From: Prochlorococcus sp. AG-388-F11
GTDB lineage: Bacteria > Cyanobacteriota > Cyanobacteriia > PCC-6307 > Cyanobiaceae
DNA length: 64,000 nt
Assembly (NCBI GenBank): GCA_003279845.1
Contig: QCGP01000002.1
Span: 62,001-126,000, forward strand
Direction of reading: 5' to 3'
This document shows, in pieces, positions 27,103 to 61,338 of this stretch. The translations under genes and the position numbers were made by a program. The notes beneath the pieces are model-generated. The model saw nothing but the letters and a program-made list of their open reading frames with translations, was not told where the DNA came from and ran no database searches. The first letter of the stretch is position 1, and each line of letters starts with the position of its first letter.

Positions 27103-27759
27103 CTAGTTTGTTTTCATTGATGCGACCTCTTCAGCAAAGTCCATCTGATTTTTTTCGATACCTTCACCCAATGTATATCGTGTAAAGCGTCTTACTTTGA
27201 TATTTTCTCCAATTTTTGCAGCTGCTTGTTTAACAAGATCCTCAACTGTTAGAGAACTATCTTTAATGTAGGGTTGTGAAAGCAAAACAAGCTCATTAAG
27301 TCTTTTTGCTATTCTCCCTTCAACTATTTTTTCTTTAATTTGTTCTGGTTTTCCAGATAAATCATCCCTACCCATTTCAATTTGCTTTTCTTTATCCACA
27401 ACATCTTCAGGTATTTCGTCAATTGATACATACTCAACATTTGGGCATGCTGCTACTTGCATTGAGACATCCTTCAACAGAGATTGGAATATATCACCTC
27501 TAGCAACGAAATCAGTTTCACAATTTAACTCTAGTAAAACTCCGACTCTTGATCCAGTATGTATGTAACTACCAATTGAACCTTCGGCCGCTACTCTTCC
27601 CATTTTCTTTTCAGCACTAGCTATGCCTTTTTTTCTTAACCATTCCAAAGCTTTATCTAGATTTCCTTCAGTTTCGTTAAGTGCTTTTTTGCAGTCCATC
27701 ATTCCTGCGCCAGTTTTGTCTCTAAGATCTTTTACAAGTTTTGCTGTAATGTTTCCCAT
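27103..27759 (-). CDS. tsf: elongation factor Ts
   Basis: EF-Ts is the guanine nucleotide exchange factor of EF-Tu. The 218-aa protein starts [24 protein letters not shown] (family N-terminal module), has [11 protein letters not shown] (EF-Tu contact region) and the C-terminal SLTVEDL motif. The length is typical of the short cyanobacterial form. It follows rpsB by 44 bp in the usual rpsB-tsf order. Confidence 0.97.
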
Positions 27760-28508: not shown

Positions 28509-28520
28509 AATTTAAAAAGG

Positions 28521-28584
28521 GTTTCGGGTTAGCCTCCATCTGACTGGGAATTAATATTAATAATTCACCCGAAACTGTCAGATG
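28521..28584 (-). promoter_or_regulatory. predicted pseudoknot in the rpsB 5' leader
   Basis: Four segments read, on the plus strand, as A (28521-28529, GTTTCGGGT), B (28537-28544, CATCTGAC), A' (28567-28575, ACCCGAAAC) and B' (28577-28584, GTCAGATG). A pairs perfectly with A' (9 bp) and B with B' (8 bp), in the interleaved order A-B-A'-B', which is the topology of an H-type pseudoknot. In the mRNA the last arm ends 13 nt before the rpsB ATG. The loop contains a further small AT stem. The position suggests autoregulation by S2, as is known for rpsB-tsf in E. coli; that regulation here is inferred. Confidence 0.7.
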
Positions 28585-28637
28585 TGTGAAATTTATTTCA
28601 TCTATTCTAGCAAGTGATGTGTATTTCTAAAAGTTTT

Positions 28638-29549
28638 TTATCTTGATTTGGTTAACTGTTTAATGTAAATCATATTTAAAGGGATCCTAAGTATCTCAAG
28701 TGCAAGTCTATTTCTTCTTATATTTACTAGGAATCTTAATAAAGGAAGGATTCTATCAACACTGATTAGTCCTCCCACGCAAAGAATTTGCCAAAGTAAA
28801 TTATGGAGAGGAGTTAATTGAATCATAAATCTAACCCTTAAATTTGGGTGTTTCTTGTAAAACACTAAAGCCATTTTTGCTCTCTCTTTTTCTTGAGCTA
28901 TTAATGAATCTATTTGTTCGCAATTAAATGGCGGATGCCAATGAAAACCTACTGCATTTGGACATTTAATTAATTTTGTCCCAATTTTTTTTAATCTTTC
29001 TCCAAGTTCTAAATCCTCCCAACCGTAAAGACTAAACGAAGTATCAAATAATCCCACACTTATAATCAATTCTTTTGATATCGCTACATTCCCAGTAGCA
29101 AAATAGGCAAAGGAAGTGTCCAGAATTTTATGTGTTTCACTCTGAGGATTTAGAAAATTAGATGTATTGACTACCGAGCCATAGGTAAAACATTTTTTAT
29201 CATTTTTTCTCCAAGAGGCAAGTAATTTTTCTACGTGGCAATTTATAAAATTGTCTAAAACAATAAGATCACTATCAATGAATATAATAATTTCATATTT
29301 TGATTTAATTACTCCCAGATTTCTTCCAAGTGCAGGCCCTCCATGTTCTTGCTGAAATAGAATAACGTGTGGGAGATTAGCTTTGTTTTTATTTATCCAT
29401 GAGGTTGTCCCATCAGTTGATCCATCATCAACTACTATTACTTCATAATTACTGATATTTGTATTTAATTTTTGATTCTCAAGGGCAAATAGACATTTCT
29501 CTAATATAGGCAATCTATTGTAAGTCGGTATAACAATACTTACATTCAT
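28638..29549 (-). CDS. family 2 glycosyltransferase
   Basis: The 303-aa protein has a GT-A fold: SIVIPTYNRLPILEKC (4-19), VVDDGSTDGTTSW with the nucleotide-sugar Asp, IIFIDSDLIV (DxD-like), and GWEDLELGERLKKIG (acceptor/base ED motif). A hydrophobic amphipathic C-terminus may associate with the membrane. The sugar donor and acceptor cannot be told; cell-surface polysaccharide is the usual role. It stands alone between rpsB and the small basic gene, with 129 bp to rpsB that contains the S2 leader. Confidence 0.88.
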   Translation of the reverse strand: MNVSIVIPTYNRLPILEKCLFALENQKLNTNISNYEVIVVDDGSTDGTTSWINKNKANLPHVILFQQEHGGPALGRNLGVIKSKYEIIIFIDSDLIVLDNFINCHVEKLLASWRKNDKKCFTYGSVVNTSNFLNPQSETHKILDTSFAYFATGNVAISKELIISVGLFDTSFSLYGWEDLELGERLKKIGTKLIKCPNAVGFHWHPPFNCEQIDSLIAQEKERAKMALVFYKKHPNLRVRFMIQLTPLHNLLWQILCVGGLISVDRILPLLRFLVNIRRNRLALEILRIPLNMIYIKQLTKSR

Positions 29550-61007: not shown

Positions 61008-61167
61008 TTTATAGAAAAGATCCTTTATACAAATATAAAAGTAATGATCCCACTGTCATAACAATAGATTATGATATCTTTTAAACTTTATTTAAATTTT
61101 TCTTGATGAGGTATTAATACTTAAAAACTATTCCAGAAAAGCTTGTTTTGATCATGCTCCCCGAGAG

Positions 61168-61278
61168 TTATCCACTTTTTTGCTGTTTTTCAACAGGGTT
61201 TTCCACAATATGTTGATTAAATTAAATCTTCTATGTGCAAAATAAAATATTTTCTCTTTTTAAAAAAATATTTCCACA
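61168..61278 (+). promoter_or_regulatory. cluster of DnaA-box-like 9-mers
   Basis: TTATCCACT (61168-61176), TTTTCCACA (61199-61207) and ATTTCCACA (61270-61278) are all in the same orientation in 111 bp. TTTTCCACA is the form common at cyanobacterial origins. A small hairpin (CTGTT/AACAG, 61183-61196) lies between the first two. No dnaN or dnaA is near, so this is more likely a DnaA-titration or regulatory cluster than oriC; a chance origin in AT-rich DNA is possible. Confidence 0.4.
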
Positions 61279-61338
61279 TTTTGTTTTCATGATCAGTAGG
61301 ATTCAATATGTCATTTTTTTAAAATTATTTTTAAACTT

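Follow-up and report, generated by a model that had tools for sequence, protein, structure and literature searches.

A pseudoknotted leader of the rpsB motif kind ahead of the S2 gene in Prochlorococcus, a probable S2-responsive element

INTRODUCTION

Directly upstream of rpsB, the gene for ribosomal protein S2, the genome of Prochlorococcus sp. AG-388-F11 carries two pairs of complementary arms in an interleaved order, and the question raised by this locus is whether they form an RNA structure through which S2 could control its own synthesis. The window analyzed here is the whole stretch of 64,000 nt that contains them. A preliminary description, made from its letters, had proposed an H-type pseudoknot, had held the arms unlikely to arise by chance, and had pointed to E. 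coli, where S2 autoregulates rpsB-tsf through the leader. A 2024 review agrees with this last statement: with S1 assisting, S2 acts through the leader to repress rpsB-tsf, by a mechanism whose details are called unclear (PMC10931766). An "rpsB motif" with a pseudoknot, located upstream of rpsB and with Cyanobacteria among its holders, was described by Meyer et al. 2009 (PMC2704228).

MATERIALS AND METHODS

The sample comprised the rpsB upstream regions of 33 other genera in the family, which we take to be Cyanobiaceae, with one region per genus, and seven divergent ones of the same genus. Beyond the family, 29 leaders came from elsewhere in the class, and a further 11 represent other classes in the phylum. 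Upstream regions were used from 78 of 80 rpsB loci, L050 and L058 being too short, and loci L081-L110 were left out of the counts. Polymorphism was counted in 85 of 86 Prochlorococcus leaders, with L150 skipped.

The parser, which demands at least six P1 pairs and fixed flanks and picks the best pseudoknot run, yields counts that lean towards structure. It failed on 12 of 159 leaders, including L159, L171, L173, and L176, which the covariance model did match. L151 was parsed in the wrong register, L182 and L187 were parsed but not counted as members, and L180 was parsed but is doubtful.

Alignment A1 is made up of 58 leaders whose P1 strands lie no more than 70 nt apart, and covariance model R1 was built from 58 leaders on P1 only. 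Of 84 sources, alignment A3 holds 82 leaders, 58 of them also in R1; 81 are cyanobacterial and one is from E. coli, whose row is blank at the pseudoknot 5' strand. L230 and L231 were left out of A3 as missed at E 0.01, yet they resemble L171 by eye, and L224 was left out as the same leader as L154. Alignment A2, which has six spurious rows, was excluded from the counts.

RESULTS

In the plus-strand letters, the arms are exactly complementary as first reported, over 9 bp between GTTTCGGGT (28521-28529) and ACCCGAAAC (28567-28575) and over 8 bp between CATCTGAC (28537-28544) and GTCAGATG (28577-28584). Their interleaved order is borne out as P1-PK-P1'-PK' on the minus strand, which codes for rpsB (Table 1). 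The mRNA reads 5' CAUCUGAC-a-GUUUCGGGU-22 nt-GUCAGAUG-GAGGCUA-ACCCGAAAC-12 nt-AUG; the end of the element had been placed 13 nt before the start codon, which is correct as a difference of coordinates, but the bases between the last arm and the AUG number 12. The pseudoknot itself stands, with covariation in both stems, but it is not a bare H-type fold, because a third stem, P3, which the preliminary description had overlooked, sits within the 22-nt interval.

Table 1. Coordinates of the element, of its neighbors, and of other features in the window
Feature	Position	Strand	Remarks
Promoter-like site TTTAGA-16-TAGAAT	28604..28631	-	TG before -10; consensus scan only
5' unpaired CACA (CRCA)	28585..28588	-	Conserved; also CACA in E. 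coli and in the t44 consensus
P1 5' strand CAUCUGAC	28577..28584	-	Pairs with 28537-28544
Pseudoknot 5' strand GUUUCGGGU	28567..28575	-	J2-3 of the rpsB motif; pairs with 28521-28529
Possible alternative 5' hairpin CAUCUGA/UCGGGUG	28566..28584	-	7-pair stem; exclusive with P1 and the pseudoknot
P3 hairpin GAAUUA-7 nt-UAAUUC	28548..28566	-	6-bp stem, -2.6 kcal/mol
P1 3' strand GUCAGAUG	28537..28544	-	Complement of the P1 5' strand
Joining strand GAGGCUA, P1 to pseudoknot	28530..28536	-	Conserved; GAGGCAUA in E. coli
Pseudoknot 3' strand ACCCGAAAC	28521..28529	-	Pairs with 28567-28575
Spacer to AUG	28509..28520	-	12 nt; without a Shine-Dalgarno-like 4-mer
rpsB, ribosomal protein S2, 234 aa	27804..28508	-	ORF; TIGR01011 rpsB_bact 326 bits, cut-off 76; downstream of the element
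tsf, elongation factor Ts	27103..27759	-	ORF; TIGR00116 tsf 227 bits, cut-off 104; second in a presumed operon with rpsB
Glycosyltransferase-like gene	28638..29549	-	Upstream of rpsB, same strand; top NCBIfam match is EpsD at 137 bits (cut-off 370, not reached)
Yfr17 (RF02365)	61051..61309	-	82 bits; only Rfam match in the window at curated cut-offs

The S2 protein of the window is identical to many Prochlorococcus records, and the intergenic leader of rpsB measures 129 nt. A promoter scan finds three sites against a mean of 1.3 in shuffles, so the promoter-like site, which might start the mRNA a few nucleotides upstream of the element and not inside it, carries little weight. The sole terminator-like call was the alternative 5' hairpin followed by AAUUAUUAAU, which has no U tract, and an intrinsic terminator was rejected.

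Predicted helix strengths in the window are -9.7 kcal/mol for P1 and -11.4 kcal/mol for the pseudoknot helix, and nested folding of the 98-nt leader retains the pseudoknot helix and P3 and breaks P1 (-20.6 kcal/mol, z -2.4). For a pseudoknot, a 9-bp second stem preceded by just 1 nt leaves little space, and its outer two pairs may therefore be unformed. L146 and L149, two Prochlorococcus leaders, have GGGUUA, with which the pseudoknot helix could reach 11 bp and the alternative hairpin loses its first pair.

Across leaders, the crossing segments are nearly constant, with 4-7 nt from P1 to CGGGU and 7-9 nt from P1' to ACCC in each of the 144 parsed leaders, whereas the loop between them varies from <20 to >100 nt and the P1 strands lie 24-117 nt apart in parsed leaders. 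Near-fixed crossing lengths around a variable loop fit a pseudoknot, while two independent alternative hairpins would not require them. The interval between the P1 strands folds below -1 kcal/mol in 104 of the 145 leaders tried. CGCA or CACA stands at the 5' unpaired site in 142 of 144 parsed leaders, a count that leans because the parser required CA and favored C first, and the joining strand holds GAGG in 138 of the 144, the parser having admitted only GAGG-like strands.

That such stems are unlikely by chance was upheld: when the 129-nt leader was shuffled 20,000 times with dinucleotides preserved, 18 shuffles had perfect interleaved stems of 8 and 9 bp or longer, thresholds that were chosen after the arms had been seen. 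Looser interleaved stems are present in 666 of the same shuffles at 7+7 and in 6,757 at 6+6.

The preliminary description had looked to compensatory changes in both stems, and these are found across cyanobacteria, many in P1 and few in the pseudoknot. Among the 82 aligned leaders, two-sided changes occur in 8 of 8 P1 pairs, the alignment being fitted to P1, and in 5 of 9 pairs of the pseudoknot, to which it was not fitted, in 1-4 sequences each and with three pairs that never vary. The last P1 pair is non-standard in 19 of the 82, and 13 of 71 cells are unpaired at the eighth pseudoknot pair. The two-sided pseudoknot changes rest on nine cells, in related sequences, and the GGGU/ACCC core shows one G-U and no two-sided change across the 82 leaders. 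Support for the pseudoknot thus comes from few changes because this core hardly varies, and the core could partly be kept as sequence. In each helix 96.5% of cells are paired, and 13 of the 17 pairs of both have two-sided changes. None of 500 shuffles reached the observed values for both helices together (slid versions were 14-53% paired); for the pseudoknot alone, none was as high on four measures and one on the fifth (slid versions, 6-67%).

A MAFFT alignment of 58 leaders, selected in part because they have both helices, gave two-sided changes in 7 of 8 P1 pairs and 1 of 9 pseudoknot pairs. Compensated pseudoknot variants are seen in divergent families (UUGGGU/ACCCA and ACGGGU/ACCCGU), and compensated P1 changes occur within Prochlorococcus, such as CATCTGGC/GCCAGATG. 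In the 85 Prochlorococcus leaders, the mean minor-allele fraction is 0.000-0.024 in the four arms versus 0.21-0.26 in the flanks. From these comparisons, the element is a conserved folded RNA.

In every one of the 33 other Cyanobiaceae genera the parser finds the element upstream of rpsB, and the 29 rpsB leaders from other families of the class have it without exception, 25 by the parser and four by the covariance model. Outside the class, 10 of the 11 leaders (L180-L190) from other classes of the phylum are without it, and the model matches only L180, weakly (15.6 bits, E 0.0096). Searched against 291 whole genomes from the phylum, R1 detects the element in 126 at E<=0.1. Among the genomes listed, in order of kinship, the matches are 11 of 12 for the genus, counting the own genome, all 24 of the other genomes in the family, 90 of the 103 others in the class, and a single one of 152 outside the class, which is doubtful (16.9 bits). 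The twelfth genus genome, G260, has no R1 match and also no rpsB match. As for the 13 class-level misses, the rpsB leaders of 11 carry a model match, and L230 and L231 resemble their relative L171 by eye.

The best R1 hits that were compared with rpsB coordinates, some of the 126, sit just upstream of rpsB. Elsewhere, R1 gave seven weak extra hits (16.8-25.3 bits), and none of the six read by eye is complete, the seventh being that of G156; one of them, L236, has a P1-like stem and GGAGG and no GGGU strand. Viral contigs gave no matches to one strict pattern of the element.

The joining strand has GUGG in place of GAGG in four Cyanobiaceae genera (L121, L125, L127, and L132). It is strongly altered (GGUUGUUUA, GGUUUGA or GGAUUAA) in two class-level families, one with L171, L230, and L231 and the other with L173 and L228, and the same families have compensated pseudoknot changes; their leaders are useful test cases for what S2 recognizes. 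Four leaders of one family from other classes (L183, L184, L189, and L190), which are without the pseudoknot element, share a block GATAGG.TTTGCCCTAGT ... TTTAGCCCGTAGTACAA in most or all four ahead of rpsB. Its consensus fold is weak, with 15 pairs, four of them with two-sided changes, in four sequences, and it is possibly a different leader element.

After the pseudoknot, a Shine-Dalgarno-like 4-mer is present in all 25 class-level leaders that were parsed, and by eye in the remaining four, versus none of the 33 other Cyanobiaceae genera and none of the 86 Prochlorococcus leaders, all these being counts of rpsB leaders only. The pairing strand is 9 long in all 33 of those genera versus 5-8 in 21 of the 25 class-level leaders. 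The absence of a Shine-Dalgarno sequence in the sampled Cyanobiaceae, set against the other families sampled, may be a new detail. We considered GGAGG in the joining strand as a displaced Shine-Dalgarno sequence and disfavor it, because the genera with GUGG there (4 of the 33) are also without such a 4-mer after the pseudoknot.

DISCUSSION

The element is most probably an S2-responsive leader (rpsB motif) of the rpsB-tsf mRNA, and S2 autorepression is most likely its function. The comparisons show an 8-bp P1 capped by P3, with UUUCGGGU between P1 and P3 paired to ACCCGAAA after P1, forming a pseudoknot just before the start codon. In the mechanism that we propose, S2 in excess of assembling 30S subunits, by homology, would bind this fold and stabilize it, probably through two conserved strands, CRCA and GAGGC(U)A, where P1 has its base. 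The stabilized knot would then exclude the 30S subunit, lowering the synthesis of S2 and, by coupling, that of EF-Ts. Simple mimicry of 16S rRNA does not carry over, because GGAGG near E. coli position 829, a stretch which is presumably helix 26 and which reads UUGGAGG in E. coli, is absent from the same stretch in Prochlorococcus, and we rule against it. Among the member leaders output by the parser, 8-21 nt separate the end of the pseudoknot 3' strand from the AUG, and a 30S subunit would cover this stretch, so direct occlusion would be the simplest mechanism. It may still not be the mechanism used, because the ribosome binding site of E. coli lies outside the S2 operator according to the review (PMC10931766).

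Three other readings have to be weighed against this one. At the shuffle frequency given above, a 64-kb window could contain one pair of such stems, as would be expected if the arms were chance inverted repeats in AT-rich DNA; the covariation across 82 leaders and the single model match in the whole window speak against it, and conservation and covariation together leave this reading with a negligible probability. The fold could also be a constitutive 5' structure, one that shields the mRNA against decay or determines its translation rate, with no S2 sensing in cyanobacteria. With the promoter-like site, and assuming a start about 7 nt after the -10, the mRNA would begin about 9 nt ahead of the element, as for a 5' stabilizer, and no S2 binding or repression in a cyanobacterium turned up in the literature searched, which lacked most subscription journals. 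However, no complete copy away from rpsB is seen among the extra hits examined, the unpaired GAGG and CRCA strands are strongly conserved, and the leader matches the S2 operator of E. coli, all of which makes a purely constitutive role improbable.

The remaining reading concerns the order of folding, with the helices and the alternative hairpin, in which the P1 5' strand pairs with GGGUG, as successive, mutually exclusive folds: the hairpin would form first and leave the start region open, and S2 or time would lead to closure of the pseudoknot. P1 positions 1-5 are compatible with GGGUG in 403 of 405 cells (99.5%) though positions 3-5 vary, slid versions reaching 21-50%, and in 77 of 81 leaders the 5' fragment takes the hairpin as its minimum-free-energy fold, with a mean of -6.8 kcal/mol. 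Runs of at least five pairs occur in 81 of 81 leaders versus 34% with shuffled P1 arms, and of at least six in 57 of 81 versus 8%, although the leaders are related and this comparison is not one of independent cases. The shuffle control, with 500 of 500 as high, is uninformative, and covariation cannot test the pairing, because GGGUG is nearly invariant. Stems change mainly by transitions, which preserve pairing to G anyway, and this counts against the reading. So do the purine at P1 position 6 in 81 of 82 leaders, though an A at this position cannot form the alternative pair, the E. coli leader, which by eye permits only three such pairs in register, and P1 and the pseudoknot helix, each of which is stronger in the window. 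We consider such successive folds unlikely, and the alternative hairpin a lead and not proof, with a detail that may be new beyond the published description. Slightly less likely again is a fuller version, with the cyanobacterial S2 leader as a bistable co-transcriptional switch. Its P1 5' strand would be complementary to both P1' and GGGUG, and a nascent open hairpin would refold into an S2-stabilized knot over the initiation region; in Cyanobiaceae, two more pseudoknot-compatible positions would replace the Shine-Dalgarno sequence, fusing operator and ribosome entry site.

An S2-responsive leader, the reading that we prefer, is not new in kind, because the motif, with its pseudoknot and its occurrence in Cyanobacteria, was already described by Meyer et al. 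2009, and the element is a cyanobacterial form of their rpsB motif. In that article, P2 is absent or short in Cyanobacteria, P3 is variable, the pseudoknot joins J2-3 to a 3' extension after P1, and five pseudoknot pairs are predicted in groups other than Firmicutes (PMC2704228). Like the motif, the element lies in the rpsB 5' leader, in the window and in 62 further leaders (L111-L143 and L151-L179; 58 by the parser and four by the model). Its P1 is supported by covariation, its pseudoknot pairs the junction strand ahead of P3 with the strand that follows P1, P2 is absent or short, with 4-7 nt from P1 to CGGGU in 144 of 144, and P3 is of variable length. Unlike the five pairs predicted in the article, 9 uninterrupted complementary positions are present in 33 of 33 other Cyanobiaceae genera; the class-level leaders show 5-9 in 25, with L151 read in the wrong register.

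At curated cut-offs, Rfam has no match at the element. The t44 model (RF00127), which is annotated in E. coli K-12 directly ahead of rpsB, gives 27.6 bits on the leader (E 4.7e-4 in a search of 261 nt) and does not reach its gathering cut-off of 44; over the whole own genome it finds no match at E<=1, and it matches 5 of 14 control genomes, one of which passes the cut-off. In the other direction, R1 scores 24.1 bits (E 1.7e-5) on the E. coli rpsB leader, a match that rests on CACA, P1, GAGGC, and ACCC because the GGGU strand is left unaligned. This comparison with known S2 leader models, which the preliminary description had proposed, shows the E. coli and cyanobacterial leaders matching mutually, with the t44 score below its cut-off. 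Because both leaders match each other's models, the tie to S2 control in E. coli is stronger than that description had it.

By eye, the E. coli leader shares with the element CACA, an 8-bp P1 (CACGUAUC/GAUACGUG), the joining strand GAGGCAUA, a GGGGU/ACCCC complement, and the position ahead of rpsB. It differs in that the t44 consensus has a long extra stem, that about 22-24 nt, AGAGG among them, separate the E. coli element from the AUG, and that E. coli has a second, 7-nt rival partner for the 3' strand (ACCCC). Evidence from many more genomes now favors an S2 operator common to cyanobacteria and E. coli, though the Rfam cut-off misses the form seen here. The compact cyanobacterial version adjoins the start codon, whereas the E. 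coli operator is said, in the review, to lie apart from the ribosome binding site, and if the mechanism is as proposed here, cyanobacteria would be a simpler place than E. coli to learn how S2 represses translation.
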